Origin: a virus
Strand: one strand, 5' to 3'
Length of the DNA: 28,673 bases
Virus record (IMG/VR): IMGVR_UViG_3300042923_000296
Location: 1 to 28,673 of that record
Shown here: one piece after another, positions 9,076-28,085 of the stretch
How positions within the stretch are numbered: position 1 is the stretch's first letter
Layout of the letters: each line of letters begins with the position of its first letter
Translations under genes and position numbers: made by a program
Notes under the pieces: generated by a model
Told to the model about the DNA's origin: nothing
Databases searched by the model: none
The model's input: the letters and a program-made list of their open reading frames with translations, nothing else

Positions 9076-9111
9076 GGTCTGCCTCGTGCTCAGTGTCGAA
9101 GGGAATCTATG

Positions 9112-9185
9112 CGGTACTGACCGGACTTGAACCGGCGACCTCCCGCGTGACAGGCGGGCGCTCTAACCAACTGAGCTACAGAACC
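9112..9185 (-). tRNA. tRNA-Asp (GTC)
   Basis: A full cloverleaf on the minus strand. The D-arm is GCTC/GAGC with loop AGTTGGTTA, the anticodon stem CCCGC/GCGGG with loop CTGTCAC (anticodon GTC), the variable loop AGGTC, and the T-arm GCCGG/CCGGT with loop TTCAAGT. The acceptor stem GGTTCTG/CAGTACC has six pairs and a U-U mismatch at 4-69. The discriminator is G, as needed for Asp. CCA is not encoded. It lies 36 nt before the HNH start and would be transcribed with the leftward genes. Confidence 0.9.
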
Positions 9186-14071: not shown

Positions 14072-14316
14072 GGTTGGTCTCCTTGTTGGTTGGTGGGTCG
14101 GTAGAAGCGTTGGAAGTTGTGTTCGCTGATCCGCACCACCACCGCCCGCGAGCCTGGTGGTGTGTCCGTGTACGTCCACCCCAGGTAGTGGCCGGCACGC
14201 CTCGGGAACGCATCAACCACACGTACAGGCCGGGTAAACCTCACCCATTCACGGGGTGCCCCATACTTCTCAAGAAGTTCCCCACGCTTCGTTGCAACAG
14301 CCTCGCTATACCTCAC
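14068..14316 (-). CDS. Methyltransferase companion protein A (82 aa)
   Basis: An 82-residue protein from GTG 14316 that overlaps the C5-methyltransferase stop as GTGA, with AGAAGG upstream. It is clearly a paralogue of the protein at 17910-18155: shared blocks are AVAT-RG, LLEKYG, WVR, PVR, VDA, PRR, YLGW, and NF-RFYR in the same order, about half of the residues by eye. Both copies follow a DNA methyltransferase with the same GTGA junction. The conserved aromatic and Arg residues suggest nucleic-acid or protein binding. I do not recognise the family. Confidence 0.8.
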   Translation of the reverse strand: MRYSEAVATKRGELLEKYGAPREWVRFTRPVRVVDAFPRRAGHYLGWTYTDTPPGSRAVVVRISEHNFQRFYRPTNQQGDQP

Positions 14317-14957
14317 GCCGCCTTCTCCTTCGCGTGGTCGAGGATCTGCCGCCCGAGCCATTCGGTGTATGCCGGCGGGATTGCTTCGCTGAGCTCGCGG
14401 AGTTCCATCCAGTCGATGCCCATCGCTTTCTGCTGCACGTCGAGCGGGATGCGCCACACGCCGACCTCGACCGTGCGGCGGAGGTTGGTGCGGTTGGTGG
14501 CCGGCTTGAATCGGGGCGTCTGCCACGAGTGGTCACAAGGCGGTGCCATCAGCGGGATGTTGGACTCGAAGAGGCGATGCCGACGCACGTCCAGCCCGAA
14601 GCTCGAACCGCACAGCGTCACCGGTTCAATGAGGGGCGCGCCCGGCACGTTCTCGATGATGTACGGCAGACCGGAGTCGATGAGGGCCTCTCGCGTCTCG
14701 GGGATGAGGTTGAGGTAGCTGTCCCCTACCCCGTGCCCCTTGCGGCGGTAGGCGGTGAACGTCTGGCAGGGCGGGCTGGCGTGGATCGCGTCGAACTCGT
14801 GTCCGTGTTGGCGCACGAACTCGATCGCGTCGCCCACATGATGCTCGAACGGGTATCGGGGCTGAGGATTGATGTCCACCCCGACCACCTCGAAGCCGGC
14901 CCGGTGGTAGCCCATCGCGGCTCCGCCGGCGCAACTGAACAGGTCGAGTAGCTTCAC
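14313..14957 (-). CDS. DNA (cytosine-5) methyltransferase (214 aa)
   Basis: A compact C5-cytosine methyltransferase. Motif I is LDLFSCAGGAAMGYHRAGF at residue 4, motif IV ASPPCQTFTAYRR at about 60 with the catalytic Cys, motif VI IIENVPGAPL at about 101, and motif VIII-like DVRRHRLFES at about 123. The target-recognition part is short, so specificity may be simple. It lacks a nearby restriction endonuclease, so it probably protects phage DNA from host restriction. GTG 14957 was chosen for GGAGGTG upstream. It follows the zinc-ribbon gene by two bases. Confidence 0.92.
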   Translation of the reverse strand: MKLLDLFSCAGGAAMGYHRAGFEVVGVDINPQPRYPFEHHVGDAIEFVRQHGHEFDAIHASPPCQTFTAYRRKGHGVGDSYLNLIPETREALIDSGLPYIIENVPGAPLIEPVTLCGSSFGLDVRRHRLFESNIPLMAPPCDHSWQTPRFKPATNRTNLRRTVEVGVWRIPLDVQQKAMGIDWMELRELSEAIPPAYTEWLGRQILDHAKEKAA

Positions 14958-14959
14958 GG

Positions 14960-15115
14960 TCACCTCCGGTTGTTGGGGCAGTCTTCGCGCCCACCGGTAT
15001 ACGGGTTGCGGCATCTGCCGCAGGCGTGGGGGCGGGGTTCTGGTTCGTTCCGCATGACGAACGCCAGGTACTCCGCTTCGACACGAGACGGCCGATACCA
15101 GATGTCCTCACCCAT
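14960..15115 (-). CDS. Small zinc-ribbon protein (51 aa)
   Basis: A 51-residue protein from ATG 15115, two bases after the SSB stop. N-terminal part EDIWYRPSRVEAEYLAFVMR is helical; the C-terminal part HACGRCRNPYTGGREDCPNN has one CxxC and a third Cys. Likely small metal-binding protein of unknown role. The longer frame to 15157 would overlap SSB. Confidence 0.6.
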   Translation of the reverse strand: MGEDIWYRPSRVEAEYLAFVMRNEPEPRPHACGRCRNPYTGGREDCPNNRR

Positions 15116-17913: not shown

Positions 17914-18155
17914 TCCTGCACCTTTCGGTAGAACCGGTTGAAGTTGGTTTCGTTGATCCACCGCACCGGGACACGCCCAGACGGCCCAGGTTCCGCGTCG
18001 ACACGCGCCCACCCCAAATAGTTGGGTGTGTTGCGGCGTGGGCGGGCGTCAACAATCCGCACCGGCACCGCGTATCGGACCCAGGTGTGTGGGTGCCCGT
18101 ACTTCTCCAACAGGTCACCGCGGGCCGTCGCAACAGCATCAGACATACGCCTCAC
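17910..18155 (-). CDS. Methyltransferase companion protein B (81 aa)
   Basis: An 81-residue protein from GTG 18155, overlapping the stop of the second methyltransferase as GTGA. It is the paralogue of 14068-14316, sharing the ordered blocks AVAT-RG, LLEKYG, WVR, PVR, VDA, PRR, YLGW and NF-RFYR. The central linkers differ, so the two are not a recent duplication. The association with two unrelated methyltransferases suggests a function that serves methylation or its control. Confidence 0.8.
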   Translation of the reverse strand: MRRMSDAVATARGDLLEKYGHPHTWVRYAVPVRIVDARPRRNTPNYLGWARVDAEPGPSGRVPVRWINETNFNRFYRKVQE

Positions 18156-18892
18156 GACGCGTCCAATGTGGAGAAGTCGAACGCCTGCTGAGATGCGCGC
18201 TTAGCGGCGACCTCTGCGTATCGTTCGTCTGCCTCAATGCCGATGGCCTTGAATCCCATCTCGCGGGCAGCCGTAAGTGCACTCCCAGACCCTGCGAATG
18301 GGTCCAGCACCACGGCGCCCGGAGTGCAGACAACGCTCAGTAGCGTCTTCAGGAGCGCGTCCGGTTTCTCGGTCGGGTGGTCTCCATCCCGGATGGGCGA
18401 GAACCGCAGAACGTTGGCAACGTCCCGGCGAGCTGGTGGCGTTGGTGTCCCGGCCGTCATGTGAACGATGAACTCGTGCTGGTTGCGGAAGATGGCTCCC
18501 ATGCCCAGTCGGTCCTTGTCCCAGACCAACATCGGGTGCTGGCGAAGGTCCGCGGACTCGAGCGCGGCGGCGAGGTGTCCCGCCATGCGCCAGTCAATGA
18601 AGGACAGAACGTGCCCGCCGTCACTCAGCAGACGGCGCCACTGGACTCCGCACTGACGCAGCAGGTAGACGAAACCGTGGGTGCTCATGGCGTCGCCGCG
18701 AATCCAGTCGTCGTCGTCCGTGGACCGGTTCATGGACTTGCGCAGACTCCGCGAGTTCTCGCGCCGACCTCCGCTGCTGTACGGCGGGTCCGTGAGGACA
18801 GTCGTAACGGATCTATCTGGCAGGGAGGCCATCACCTCGAGGCAATCGCCTAGGTAGATGGTCACGCTTTCGTCTTCGTAGTACAGGCTCAT
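18152..18892 (-). CDS. DNA adenine-N6 or cytosine-N4 methyltransferase, beta class (246 aa)
   Basis: A 246-residue amino-methyltransferase. The catalytic motif IV TDPPYSSG lies at about residue 35, followed by a variable target-recognition region, and the S-adenosylmethionine motif VLDPFAGSGSALTAA lies near residue 195. This motif order is the beta class. HPTEKPDALLKTLL before motif I is also typical. No partner endonuclease is nearby, so anti-restriction is the likely role. N6 versus N4 cannot be decided from the motif. ATG 18892 overlaps the upstream stop. Confidence 0.9.
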   Translation of the reverse strand: MSLYYEDESVTIYLGDCLEVMASLPDRSVTTVLTDPPYSSGGRRENSRSLRKSMNRSTDDDDWIRGDAMSTHGFVYLLRQCGVQWRRLLSDGGHVLSFIDWRMAGHLAAALESADLRQHPMLVWDKDRLGMGAIFRNQHEFIVHMTAGTPTPPARRDVANVLRFSPIRDGDHPTEKPDALLKTLLSVVCTPGAVVLDPFAGSGSALTAAREMGFKAIGIEADERYAEVAAKRASQQAFDFSTLDAS

Positions 18893-19152
18893 GACTCCAC
18901 CTCCCGCGCAGCTTCGAGAGCGGCGCGCATATCGTCGTGATCCGTTGGCCCGTCGTTGTGCAGCCAGACGCCGATAGCCGCTTCGACCTGTGCGTCGGTG
19001 ATCTGCCCCTGTCGGCGGAAACCAGCGGCGAGGATCGCATCAACCTGTGGCAACCACCATTCCCAGGTGCCACCCTCCGGGTCCGGCATTACGCCGCCTT
19101 CCGGGTCGCTGTCGTCCAGGATTCGGGCCAACTCCTCGCGCTCGTCGCTCAC
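18889..19152 (-). CDS. Hypothetical protein with ITDAQV domain (87 aa)
   Basis: An 87-residue acidic protein. Its C-terminal 35 residues, ITDAQVEAAIGVW...MRAALEAAREVES, are related to the end of the 80-residue protein at 24814-25056. The N-terminal 45 residues (DDSDPEGGVMPDPEGGTWEW) are unrelated. So a small helical module has been joined to different partners. ATGA overlaps at both ends. Function unknown. Confidence 0.7.
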   Translation of the reverse strand: MSDEREELARILDDSDPEGGVMPDPEGGTWEWWLPQVDAILAAGFRRQGQITDAQVEAAIGVWLHNDGPTDHDDMRAALEAAREVES

Positions 19153-19544
19153 GACTCCACCTCGAACATGAGTCGCGCGGTCTCCCGGTCCCGCTCACGC
19201 GCCTGAAACAGCAACACCTTCACATCCGCAGGCAACGGTTCCCGCGGCGGATACGTCGGCTCGAGCAGTCCCCGCGCCTTCGCGGAACGAACATCCGCCT
19301 CGATGTCAGCGAGCTTGGAACGCGCGTCAACTTCGAGTCGGTCTAGGACGCGCCCCACGGTCAGGTACTCGTTGCGGGTCGCCTGGTCACGGAAGTGAGC
19401 CATGATGACCGCCTGCCCCACCTCGTACGGTGCGTCTGCGATCTCCGGGATGGAGTGCCACGCTTCCACCGTCATCTCGTCCACCTGGCGACGGTCGAAC
19501 CCGGACACGATCGTCAACAGTTTTGCAACCTCTGTCTTGTTCAC
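19149..19544 (-). CDS. Replication-operon protein, possible helicase-loader-like (131 aa)
   Basis: Starts at GTG 19544 (MNKTEVAKLLTIVSGFDRRQ) through GTGA overlap with the replication gene. N-terminal AKLLTIVSGFDRRQVDEMTVEAWHSIPEI is a pattern found in small phage proteins placed right after a replication initiator. The C-terminal half is charged and coiled-coil-like. Association with replication is inferred from coupling to the initiator gene; there is no P-loop. Confidence 0.6.
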   Translation of the reverse strand: MNKTEVAKLLTIVSGFDRRQVDEMTVEAWHSIPEIADAPYEVGQAVIMAHFRDQATRNEYLTVGRVLDRLEVDARSKLADIEADVRSAKARGLLEPTYPPREPLPADVKVLLFQARERDRETARLMFEVES

Positions 19545-20305
19545 GGGGTGAGTCCCTTCTGCTGGACGCCTTCGATAGCGGCGAACTTCGCAACGACGGC
19601 CATGTTCTGTTCTGTGCGGGTAGGGGCATTGCCGTAGACAGGTCTCGGCTTCGCGTTCCCCAACCACGTGCGGAACGATGCGTGCCAGTCGAGTTGCTTC
19701 CGCCCGTTCGCTGCGGCATGGTTCCGGAACTGGTCGGCCTCATGGTTCACATCCACTCCGCGGGTCTGCGCGTAGGCGATGCAATTGGGGTTAGGTGTCC
19801 AGTCGAGGGGCAGCCCTGTGGCGCGCCTCTCCCCTGTTCCCTTTCCCCTGTTCCCCTGTTCCCCTGTTCCCTTTCCAGGGACGGGAGTTCCGACACCAGA
19901 GTCGGACAATCCGCCGCTATCCGCGGACGCTCCGACCCCCGTATTTCCGCGGGCTACAGCCGCTTCCGCAGCCTCAAGCAACCCGTCACGCGGTTTCGCC
20001 TTCTTCTCCGTCCGCTGGTGCTTCTCCCAGCTCGGAATGACATAAAACGGGCGTCCGTGATGCTCGAAGTAGACGACTCCGAAGGCTTCCGACACGTCCG
20101 ACGCCAGCCGCGGATAATCCGCCGCCGAAACGTCGTCGTCGTTGGGGAATGCGAATCCGACGAGTTGCTTCCCGTTGGCGGTGCCGATGCCGTAGTCGTC
20201 AGCCCAGTTCCACATCGCGATGAAGAACAGCCGCGCACGCAGGCTCGCCCTCGCAGTGGCCGGCGAATCCCAGAACTCGGGCTTGATGGTTCGGATGCGC
20301 GCCAT
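19541..20305 (-). CDS. Replication initiation / winged-helix replisome organiser (254 aa)
   Basis: A 254-residue protein starting MARIRTIKPEFWDSPATARA at ATG 20305. The first 95 residues (RARLFFIAMWNWADDYGIG ... YVIPSWEKHQ) are the winged-helix DNA-binding domain of phage replication organisers. A low-complexity linker rich in Gly/Thr/Lys follows (about 135-165), then a helical C-terminus with WHASFRTWLGNAKPRP like DnaT/DnaD-type ends. It probably recruits the host helicase to the origin. It starts inside TGATG, coupled to a 16-residue leader ORF, and lies behind the SOS-box promoter. Confidence 0.8.
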   Translation of the reverse strand: MARIRTIKPEFWDSPATARASLRARLFFIAMWNWADDYGIGTANGKQLVGFAFPNDDDVSAADYPRLASDVSEAFGVVYFEHHGRPFYVIPSWEKHQRTEKKAKPRDGLLEAAEAAVARGNTGVGASADSGGLSDSGVGTPVPGKGTGEQGNRGKGTGERRATGLPLDWTPNPNCIAYAQTRGVDVNHEADQFRNHAAANGRKQLDWHASFRTWLGNAKPRPVYGNAPTRTEQNMAVVAKFAAIEGVQQKGLTP

Positions 20306-20355
20306 CAGGTTCGGGAACCTGTAGAAGTTGCGCACAAAGGTTCGGTAGACTGCAT
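20305..20355 (-). CDS. Leader ORF (16 aa) coupled to the replication gene
   Basis: AAGGAGGGCTGCG precedes ATG 20355, the strongest ribosome site in the area, while the replication gene itself has no own site. The frame reads MQSTEPLCATSTGSRT and stops at TGA 20305-20307, inside TGATG with the replication start. Its 3' part spans two mutually exclusive hairpins (see findings). The likely role is to govern translation of the replication protein. Confidence 0.65.
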   Translation of the reverse strand: MQSTEPLCATSTGSRT

Positions 20356-20393
20356 CGCAGCCCTCCTTATCGGTTCAGTCGATATCAGGGTCA

Positions 20394-20429
20394 GGCCCCG
20401 GCGAGTGTTCCACCACTCGGTTTGGGGCC
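20394..20429 (-). promoter_or_regulatory. 5'-terminal nested hairpin of the replication transcript
   Basis: Minus strand: GGCCCC pairs with GGGGCC and, inside, CGAGTG pairs with CACTCG around a 6-nt loop. The outer stem begins at the predicted transcription start (about 20429). A hairpin at the very 5' end can stabilise mRNA. It lies 39 nt before the leader ORF. Confidence 0.5.
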
Positions 20430-20435
20430 GTTCCC

Positions 20436-20457
20436 ATTCTATCGAAAATCCGTTCGA
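20436..20457 (-). promoter_or_regulatory. LexA (SOS) box over the replication promoter
   Basis: On the minus strand TCGAACGGATTTTCGA (20457-20442) matches 15 of 16 positions of the actinobacterial LexA consensus TCGAAC-RNRY-GTTCGA. The next bases, TAGAAT (20441-20436), look like a -10 box; the -35 region is poor. The box would block RNA polymerase until host DNA damage removes LexA. Two direct repeats CGGGGACT (plus strand, 20460-20467 and 20471-20478) lie just upstream, one helical turn apart, and may bind a second regulator. Confidence 0.75.
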
Positions 20458-20481
20458 AACGGGGACTAATCGGGGACTTTC

Positions 20482-20676
20482 TCAGTCGTCTGTTGTGCGG
20501 TTGATTCCGTCACCCAGTACCACTTGAAGTACCCGCCACTTCGGGAGCCCGGAAGTCTCCACAATCTCGTCGATCGTGAACCCGTACGTATAGGCGGTTC
20601 GGCAGGCGGCGATGCGTTGCGGGCCGTGGGGTGACATCAGGTGGGACTCGATGAACGCCCGTTCCCAAATCTTCAC
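20482..20676 (-). CDS. Small HTH protein (64 aa)
   Basis: Starts at GTG 20676 (MKIWERAFIESHLMSPHGPQ) with AGGAGGCG upstream. The C-terminal half, GFTIDEIVETSGLPKWRVLQVVLG, has a clear helix-turn-helix pattern. It sits directly before the SOS-regulated promoter and so might act on it, for example on the repeats at 20460-20478. It lies nine bases after the HNH gene. Confidence 0.7.
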   Translation of the reverse strand: MKIWERAFIESHLMSPHGPQRIAACRTAYTYGFTIDEIVETSGLPKWRVLQVVLGDGINRTTDD

Positions 20677-26141: not shown

Positions 26142-26250
26142 CGCGCCAGGTCACCCCAATCGGGCCGTTACGCGACTCACCTGGACTTCTGCGGCGTACA
26201 CCCGGCCGGGATAAGCCCCGGGTATGCCCAGAGCCAGTACGACGCATTGA

Positions 26251-26290
26251 GGGTGTCGGGGACTTGAACCCCGATGTATGCCGTTCACCC
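26251..26290 (-). ncRNA. tRNA-minihelix-like hairpin 2
   Basis: Minus RNA: GGGTG, an 11-nt linker, then TCGGGG-TTCAAGT-CCCCGA joined directly to CACCC. The loop is a perfect T-loop. As for hairpin 1, acceptor-like and T-arm-like stems stack while other arms are missing. A fragment of a host tRNA 3' end (as in an attachment site) is an alternative. Confidence 0.35.
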
Positions 26291-26677
26291 GCCACCGCCT
26301 AACCCGTACGGCACGGTTCCGGGACGACTAACCCCCAGCCAACGAACGCCCTAACCCAAGCGCCCCCGGTTCCGACACGAATGCCGGCCAGTCGTGTATC
26401 AGGGCCGCACACGGCGGCTCCTGCACTTCAAATCGGTTCCCTTCGACAAGAACCTCCACCCCAACAGCGCCGCATCTCACCAGCGAACACCCGTAGACAG
26501 ATGGTCTATTTCGACGCCGCACTGCTCCTAACCGGCCCCTGAGCGGGGATCGGAATCCGCAGTATGGCTATGTAGTTGTTGCGTGCATTGCTCCGCCGTG
26601 ACGCGGGTGTCCACCTGTGTGGAGGCAATGCGGTAGCCAGGCTTCGACCGTCCGGGCCGAAGTTGAGCGGGTTCGGG

Positions 26678-27223: not shown

Positions 27224-27424
27224 TCAGGCCACCTCCCGCTCGGAGTCGGCGGGGACGAGGCGGGCCTGGTTCCAAGCGTCAAGATCGGCCGCATAGAACG
27301 CGTTCCGCTTGCCCTGCTTGTAATGCTTCGGACCCTTGCCCTGCGAGATCAGGTTGTAGAGCGTCTGCACTGCCATACCGCAGTAGTCAGCGGCGGCTTT
27401 CGACGTCAGGACGGGGCCGCTCAT
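27224..27424 (-). CDS. Excisionase/MerR-type HTH protein (66 aa)
   Basis: A 66-residue protein with LTSKAAADYCGMAVQTLYNL and QGKGPKHYKQGKRNAFY-AADLDAW: the winged-helix HTH_17 fold used by phage excisionases and small regulators. It is coupled by ATGA to the XRE regulator. It could be a directionality factor for an integrase outside the window, or an operon regulator. Confidence 0.8.
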   Translation of the reverse strand: MSGPVLTSKAAADYCGMAVQTLYNLISQGKGPKHYKQGKRNAFYAADLDAWNQARLVPADSEREVA

Positions 27425-27654
27425 GCTGCACGCTCCCCGATAAGGGCCTCAACGGGCCGGTCGAGTGCTGCTGCGATGCGGAGGAAGTTCTTGACGGTCA
27501 GCGCTTCAGGCTTGACCTTGAGCTGGTGTCGCAGCGTTGACCGTGCGATACCAGACGCTTCGGCCAACCATGAGAACTTGCGCCCCTCGGTCTCGAGGAC
27601 CCGCAAGACTCGCGCGGCTGCTTCGCCGTCTGCGAGGTGTGTGTTGGTTGCCAT
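27421..27654 (-). CDS. XRE-type regulator, Cro/CI-like, first gene of leftward operon (77 aa)
   Basis: A 77-residue helix-turn-helix protein (MATNTHLADGEAAARVLRVL; FSWLAEASGIARSTLRHQLK; FLRIAAALDRPVEALIG). A promoter fits at TTGACG (27689-27684), 17-bp spacer, CAGACT (27666-27661), placing the start of transcription at the A of ATG 27654; there is no ribosome site, so it is probably leaderless. Operator-like GTTGCCATA overlaps the start codon. It likely acts as the Cro-like partner of the switch. Confidence 0.75.
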   Translation of the reverse strand: MATNTHLADGEAAARVLRVLETEGRKFSWLAEASGIARSTLRHQLKVKPEALTVKNFLRIAAALDRPVEALIGERAA

Positions 27655-27764: not shown

Positions 27765-28085
27765 ATGGACAAGACCCAAAAGGCCGCTTCCGCCACGTTT
27801 CTCGCAACAGGAACGGCTAGTATCGACGCCGTGGATGACGCGCCTCTGACCACCGCTGACGTGGTGCGCGAACTAAAGAAGGAAGCCCTCGACGTGTACG
27901 GCACTCGAGGGAAGTTCTCTGACGCCATGAACGAGCCCGACAACACTGTTGGACGCTACTTCCGGGGTGAACGCGAGATGCCGGCCGACTTCCTGCTGCG
28001 GGCCATCGTTCTTCTCGGAGTCACCCCGGAGCAGTTTTTCGCTAATGCACGAGCGACCCGGTCGGTGCCAACCAAGGGTGACTGA
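27765..28085 (+). CDS. XRE-type immunity repressor candidate (106 aa, or 84 aa from GTG 27831)
   Basis: A plus-strand HTH protein, diverging from the leftward operon. The core DAMNEPDNTVGRYFRGEREM-PADFLLRAIVLLGVTPEQFF is an XRE-like DNA-binding domain. ATG 27765 has GAGGGGGC upstream. But TAGTAT (27818-27823) followed by seven bases and GTG 27831 looks like a leaderless promoter-start, and the N-terminal 22 residues look nonconserved, so the shorter 84-residue form may be the real or a second product. Its position facing a Cro-like gene makes it the best candidate for the lysogeny repressor. Confidence 0.75.
   Translation: MDKTQKAASATFLATGTASIDAVDDAPLTTADVVRELKKEALDVYGTRGKFSDAMNEPDNTVGRYFRGEREMPADFLLRAIVLLGVTPEQFFANARATRSVPTKGD
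27818..27833 (+). promoter_or_regulatory. Possible leaderless internal promoter of the repressor
   Basis: TAGTAT at 27818-27823 is a good -10 box. Counting seven bases gives a transcription start at G27831, exactly the in-frame GTG. No good -35 is visible. If real, the repressor is made without a leader. Confidence 0.4.

Follow-up and report, generated by a model that had tools for sequence, protein, structure and literature searches.

A LexA-type box ahead of a phage replication initiator lies on a portable leader cassette found in actinobacterial phages

Does a LexA-type (SOS) box beside the promoter ahead of a phage replication initiator (Rep) place replication under the host damage response, and if so, by what kind of element? 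The window analysed here is a whole stretch of 28,673 nucleotides (IMG/VR record IMGVR_UViG_3300042923_000296), in which the original prediction saw a host LexA box directly over a replication promoter. The box TCGAACGGATTTTCGA ends with its last base immediately before the −10 element and is identical to the SOS consensus TCGAAC-N4-GTTCGA at 11 of the 12 defined positions, the mismatch falling in the GTTC core; thus, the box and its position stand as predicted, whereas the figure of 15 of 16 counted the four N of the spacer. The consensus is actinobacterial, and any damage response at this promoter assumes a host LexA of that specificity. Taken alone, the match is weak and near chance: 0.15 boxes with at most one mismatch are expected per window under a first-order Markov model of the window, eight such boxes occur in 624 kb of similar loci, and 9% of permuted half-site patterns give at least one such site within the window. 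At the window promoter, no −35 resembling TTGACA was seen and no PafBC-like site (TGTC 16 bp before TAnnnT) was found; a candidate intrinsic terminator at 20462-20450 was rejected because the U-tract is missing. The leader ORF and both methyltransferase genes are present downstream, as described earlier, and the leader ORF overlaps the start of the initiator gene, whereas the gene taken for a second replication gene matches a single family of unknown function (Table 1). The small HTH-like gene and rep are closely preceded by an HNH endonuclease gene (PF01844; 20685-21104, minus strand).

Table 1 Features around the boxed promoter (window coordinates) and sister cassettes with TGTC
Feature	Position or locus	Strand	Remark
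Distal AGTCCCCG copy (CGGGGACT on plus strand)	20471-20478	−	
Proximal AGTCCCCG copy (CGGGGACT on plus strand)	20460-20467	−	Within −35 region
LexA-type (SOS) box TCGAACGGATTTTCGA	20442-20457	−	Adjoins −10 on its upstream side; 1 mismatch in 12
−10 element TAGAAT	20436-20441	−	First conserved element of the cassette
Whole conserved leader cassette	20340-20441	−	Covariance-model match, 102.9 bits
Hairpin 1, GGCCCC/GGGGCC with inner stem CGAGTG/CACTCG	20394-20429	−	Minimum-energy fold; covariation
Hairpin 2, TATCG/CGATA	20368-20384	−	Minimum-energy fold; covariation
Shine-Dalgarno GGAGG	20362-20366	−	
Hairpin 3, GGCTGC/GCAGTC around start codon	20348-20362	−	Minimum-energy fold; covariation
Leader ORF MQSTEPLCATSTGSRT, 16 aa	20305-20355	−	Stop overlaps rep start (TGATG)
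Inverted repeat CAGGTTC/GAACCTG	20306-20321	−	Just 5' of rep ATG
Replication initiator (Rep)	19541-20305	−	phrog_2149, E = 4e-50
Next gene after rep	19149-19667		phrog_37378 only, unknown function
Methyltransferases	18152-18892 and 14313-15014		Both downstream of cassette
Small gene upstream of cassette	20482-20676	−	HTH-like by eye; no PHROG match
Cassettes with TGTC 16 bp before −10	L067, L069, L070, L071, L074, L077, L084, L088, L098, L101, L136, L141, L145, L147		

The −10 element opens a conserved cassette of about 100 nt that extends through codon 4 of the leader ORF, in the order −10, hairpin 1, hairpin 2, Shine-Dalgarno and a hairpin around the start codon (MQST), and all three hairpins are present in the window's own minimum-energy fold. 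In its general form, the cassette consists of TAGAAT; hairpin 1, CGGCCCC..CCGGGGCC, with a variable inner stem and followed by TnACCC; hairpin 2; GGAGGGCT; and the start-codon hairpin, the start consensus being GGAGGGCTGC-n-ATG-CAGTC and variants. The first codons encode MQST in the commonest class and MNGT, MDAT or similar in the others, so that the MQST of the window's leader ORF is the cassette's own. At least 34 different genes have GGAGGGCT or a near variant at their start.

When the gap of the window was compared with all loci by short words, one telling match was obtained, before an HNH endonuclease-like gene in L010; exact-pattern scans, which undercount divergent copies, then showed that dozens of viral contigs carry the unit. 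With 41 cassette copies as its basis, a covariance model yielded 60 matches at E ≤ 1e-6, 57 of them distinct, and also recovered copies outside the pattern selection (one in Corynebacterium yonathiae, L045, and a second copy in L115). The cassette spans many unrelated phages, with 1-3 copies per record (32 records), whereas a scan of 396 actinobacterial genomes gave one clear carrier with two copies, the other matches being weak or hairpin-only. Among isolated phages, blastn with the window cassette matched ReT1v-1/-2 only and blastn with the cassette consensus gave no match, nor did the cassette match plasmids; two further members used as queries detected weak copies in Arthrobacter and Gordonia phages, and weaker copies open an annotated HNH endonuclease gene in the isolated phages 1191A, Phrank15 and Lton. 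No Rfam 15 family matched the cassette in cmscan at the gathering score or at E ≤ 5, and no description of it was found in the open-licence literature, although an earlier account elsewhere is possible; apparently, this is an undescribed, widespread leader cassette of actinobacterial phages.

The predicted RNA structure of the cassette shows strong covariation. RNAalifold misaligned hairpin 2 and predicted the structure in part only; therefore, pairs were counted on the alignment fitted to the model. This alignment favours the structure, and shuffled and slid versions served as controls. Paired cells changed on both sides numbered 109 (shuffled, 28.8; slid, 10-32), and 87% of the cells were paired, compared to 78% in shuffles. 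In the start hairpin, pairing is kept despite sequence change (CTGC/GCAG, TACC/GGTA, TAGC/GCTA, TAGAG/CTCTA).

The proteins encoded downstream of the cassettes match HNH_3 in 22 of 34 cases and PF01844 in four, NUMOD4 is found in 13 of the 34, and the remainder are a few small HTH proteins and unknowns. HNH endonuclease genes are the usual cargo, and most copies of the cassette open them. The idea of a dedicated replication promoter is not supported by this comparison: the element is portable, is mostly located before HNH genes and lends the leader ORF its first codons.

The surroundings of rep in related phages point in the same direction. In L002, where Rep is 97% identical, there is no cassette, box or gap, and another gene runs straight into rep; among homologues of the small upstream gene (seven contigs, L028-L034, 86-95% identity), the next gene follows within a few bases and the cassette is missing. 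Because these relatives lack the cassette, the 126-bp gap that bears the box lies at a mosaic joint and is no standing part of the module, and because they run on with no gap, transcription from the upstream operon is probably the normal way in which rep is read. A conserved replication promoter was accordingly rejected. In L085, a near-identical cassette is flanked by a small HTH-like gene and an initiator-like gene, both different from those of the window; the role of the initiator-like gene is assigned by position and by C-terminal likeness to Rep of L006. The short leader ORF of this cassette, MQSTNPKPTPGNE, ends at the start of the next gene, and the leader ORFs of the window and L085 run for 13-16 codons before the stop. 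In ReT1v-1, a phage of Rhodococcus equi, the box is weaker (ACGAACACAGATTCGA), and the cassette stands at the start of an HTH gene whose sequence overlaps that of a phrog_2149 initiator. Judged by gene order and sequence likeness, LexA-type cassettes thus precede replication initiators in three arrangements, those of the window, L085 and ReT1v-1. No Shine-Dalgarno was seen for rep in the window and an inverted repeat precedes its start, which makes translational coupling of rep to the leader ORF likely.

Given the usual cargo, the cassette might be a passive remnant: an HNH gene that once stood between the small upstream gene and rep would have been lost, leaving a promoter and leader with no replication role. 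The placement at a mosaic joint fits this account, as does L010, which shares its sample set with L002 and has its cassette before an HNH gene. We nevertheless consider a remnant unlikely. In L085, the same cassette is followed by an initiator-like gene of another kind, and in ReT1v-1, a related cassette is followed by an HTH-Rep pair; box, −10, hairpins and Shine-Dalgarno are all intact in the window, as the score of the covariance-model match attests; and in both the window and L085, the leader stop overlaps or nearly overlaps the initiator start. A cassette recruited to express the initiator appears to be the better reading.

What lends the window box significance is that homologous promoters have LexA-type boxes at precisely this register and that the 4-bp spacers of these boxes differ. 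Among 56 distinct promoters, 13 carry such a box (0-4 mismatches, last base touching the −10); L107 matches at 12/12 positions, the window and L085, L096 and L108 at 11/12, and the sister boxes range down to 8/12. The spacers vary (GTCC, GGAT, GCAT, CTGT, GAAT, AAAC, ACAG, CGAT), whereas the half-sites persist; position 11 is variable across the group. Some LexA-type cassettes came through a search pattern containing TTCGA and were tested separately: among cassettes not found via the box, with the window and L085 excluded, boxes with at most two mismatches occur in 3 of 47 (0.006 expected), and among those found through TTCGATAGAAT, the left half-site matches at five or more of six positions in 5 of 8 (0.06 expected). 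In the 43 non-LexA cassettes, TGTC is located 16 bp before the −10 in 14 (0.17 expected; at most two at other offsets), and several of these have TGTCGGTG, resembling PafBC/RecA-NDp damage promoters; 29 of the 56 cassettes have neither signal. The binomial p values for these comparisons are guides that overstate independence, given that the cassettes share ancestry. On a leader tree of about 95 columns, poorly resolved, the LexA-type and TGTC labels are intermixed, and switches of promoter type are not datable on so short an alignment. In actinobacterial genomes (L054, L060, L064 and L053, 1500-2056), exact TCGAAC-N4-GTTCGA boxes lie ahead of dnaE2 in both Rhodococcus and Mycolicibacterium, and in Rhodococcus also ahead of a radical SAM gene of the Rv2578c family; the ORF of L053 looks like the REP13E12/HNH type by eye, with no NCBIfam match.

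A LexA-type operator on the −10 ahead of rep, as originally predicted, is supported by this recurrence. The box could instead serve another regulator with a similar motif, such as an ArsR-family repressor, whose motif resembles the mycobacterial SOS box in a published comparison (PMC8151990), or reflect a constraint of the promoter itself, and the variability at position 11 would be compatible with this. Yet the half-sites persist through spacer changes, as they should in a LexA box, a perfect box is found in one cassette, and the alternative cassettes show the other known actinobacterial damage motif in the same register; cassettes of the non-LexA type show further that −10 and leader do not need TTCGA, so that a different regulator or a promoter constraint seems decidedly improbable. 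That a genome rich in TCGA should contain the 16-mer by chance, which the background rates given above would allow, is largely refuted by the register-specific recurrence in independently found homologous cassettes and has very little probability left. LexA itself is, on these comparisons, the best candidate for the regulator acting at the box.

A further regulator had been proposed at the repeated CGGGGACT sites beside the box, and the repeats lend it no real support. The proximal AGTCCCCG copy falls within the −35 region, where several sister cassettes have CCCC(G), and the two copies are spaced 11 bp apart in the window compared to 12 bp in L085. One-mismatch matches to CGGGGACT number 43, with 42 expected, and a scan of viral contigs for the tandem repeat recovered unrelated sequences only; given these counts and spacings, a phased dimer site was rejected. 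Another CGGGGACT copy, at 26257, lies within a stretch (26250-26340) that looks like a tRNA T-arm by eye, with no ARAGORN or Rfam call there; a tRNA-Asp (GTC) gene is located at 9111-9185 (minus strand). Separately, six unrelated viral contigs (L014, L016, L020, L021, L022 and L026) have in common conserved AGTCCCCGCnnAGTCCCCGC arrays with a flanking inverted GCGGGGACT copy.

We consider it likely, from the comparison of sequences, that actinobacterial phages share a portable, damage-inducible expression cassette and that its copy in the window gives the phage a second, SOS-responsive source of Rep. Host LexA bound to the box beside the −10 would keep the promoter off, and its removal upon DNA damage would turn the promoter on. 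The transcript would begin with the structured leader, that is, two hairpins, the Shine-Dalgarno and the hairpin that holds the start codon, and the leader would start translation of a peptide beginning with MQST, which in most phages would continue as an HNH endonuclease. In the window and L085, where the peptide stops early at the initiator start, translation would probably be passed on to the initiator (Rep in the window). During induction, this source would operate besides the repressor-controlled early operon. The earlier notion of two independent locks is not supported, since rep is probably read from the upstream operon too: with rep in the early operon and also behind an internal LexA promoter, removal of either repressor would suffice for Rep to be made (OR, not AND), and the internal promoter would be an extra way on rather than a second lock. 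Divergent small HTH-like genes at 27421-27654 (minus strand) and 27765-28085 (plus strand) look like an immunity region; the protein of the former weakly matches phage transcriptional repressor families (E = 2e-5), the latter has no PHROG or Pfam match, and no peptidase domain was seen.

A broader reading, to which we give about even credence, is that the cassettes form a portable leader-RNA family with at least two exchangeable damage inputs, LexA repression and PafBC activation, over one covarying start-codon structure, which would make homing-type HNH endonucleases of actinophages damage-inducible and would have been recruited more than once for damage-inducible phage replication. This would offer a testable account of when homing-type endonucleases are expressed, and a route by which a temperate phage could add SOS-driven replication to a repressor with no recognised self-cleaving domain.

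Several known systems share parts of this arrangement. In Bacillus phage GIL01, a host LexA box is located at the replication promoter P1 (PMC6182141), similarly to the LexA-type box at a promoter ahead of a replication gene in the window. However, GIL01 has no dedicated repressor and its lock consists of LexA with gp7, whereas the window phage encodes its own putative HTH regulators, among them the weakly matched repressor-family protein, which argues against a switch by LexA alone, and its boxed promoter is internal and portable. The box resembles actinobacterial SOS boxes in motif, length and tolerance of non-G at position 11: the S. venezuelae SOS box is tCGAAC-N4-GNNCGa, and LexA of that species tightly binds the recA box TCGAACATCCATTC, also with non-G at position 11 (PMC9380542); here, such a box stands on a phage leader cassette. 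The RecA-independent PafBC damage promoter reads tTGTCRgtg-8 nt-TannnT (PMC5656591), or TGTCGG-10N-TA-3N-T (PMC8151990), and the 14 TGTC sister cassettes, not the window copy, share its TGTC(GG)...TAnnnT spacing; phage use of this promoter was not found in the literature searched. In M. tuberculosis, putative HNH endonucleases are among the genes whose damage induction needs RecA; these are chromosomal, and such a leader is not described in the part of that source consulted (PMC8151990). Here, the PafBC/RecA-NDp signal occurs on phage cassettes that have a structured leader in common.

Start-associated sequences of actinophages have, to our knowledge, been known for over a decade with no function assigned. 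SAS and ESAS elements occur in Cluster K mycobacteriophages and Cluster EF Microbacterium phages, their role in expression being unknown (PMC7302621, PMC12699233). The cassette resembles them in combining a conserved Shine-Dalgarno and start sequence with an upstream intergenic element, common to unrelated genes, and differs in size and content: SAS is 13 bp (GGGATAGGAGCCC; GGGAAAGGACCCC), neither consensus being present at the cassette start, whereas the cassette has about 100 nt with three covarying hairpins and includes the −10 and the start codon. Within a single phage cluster, SAS often numbers about 10 or more per genome, compared to the few cassette copies per record spread over many unrelated phages, and, unlike SAS, the cassette is mostly located before HNH genes. 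Through the cassette, a start element would be tied to DNA damage as its physiological input, the signals of two damage regulators occupying one register, and to HNH endonucleases, sometimes replication initiators, as a defined cargo.
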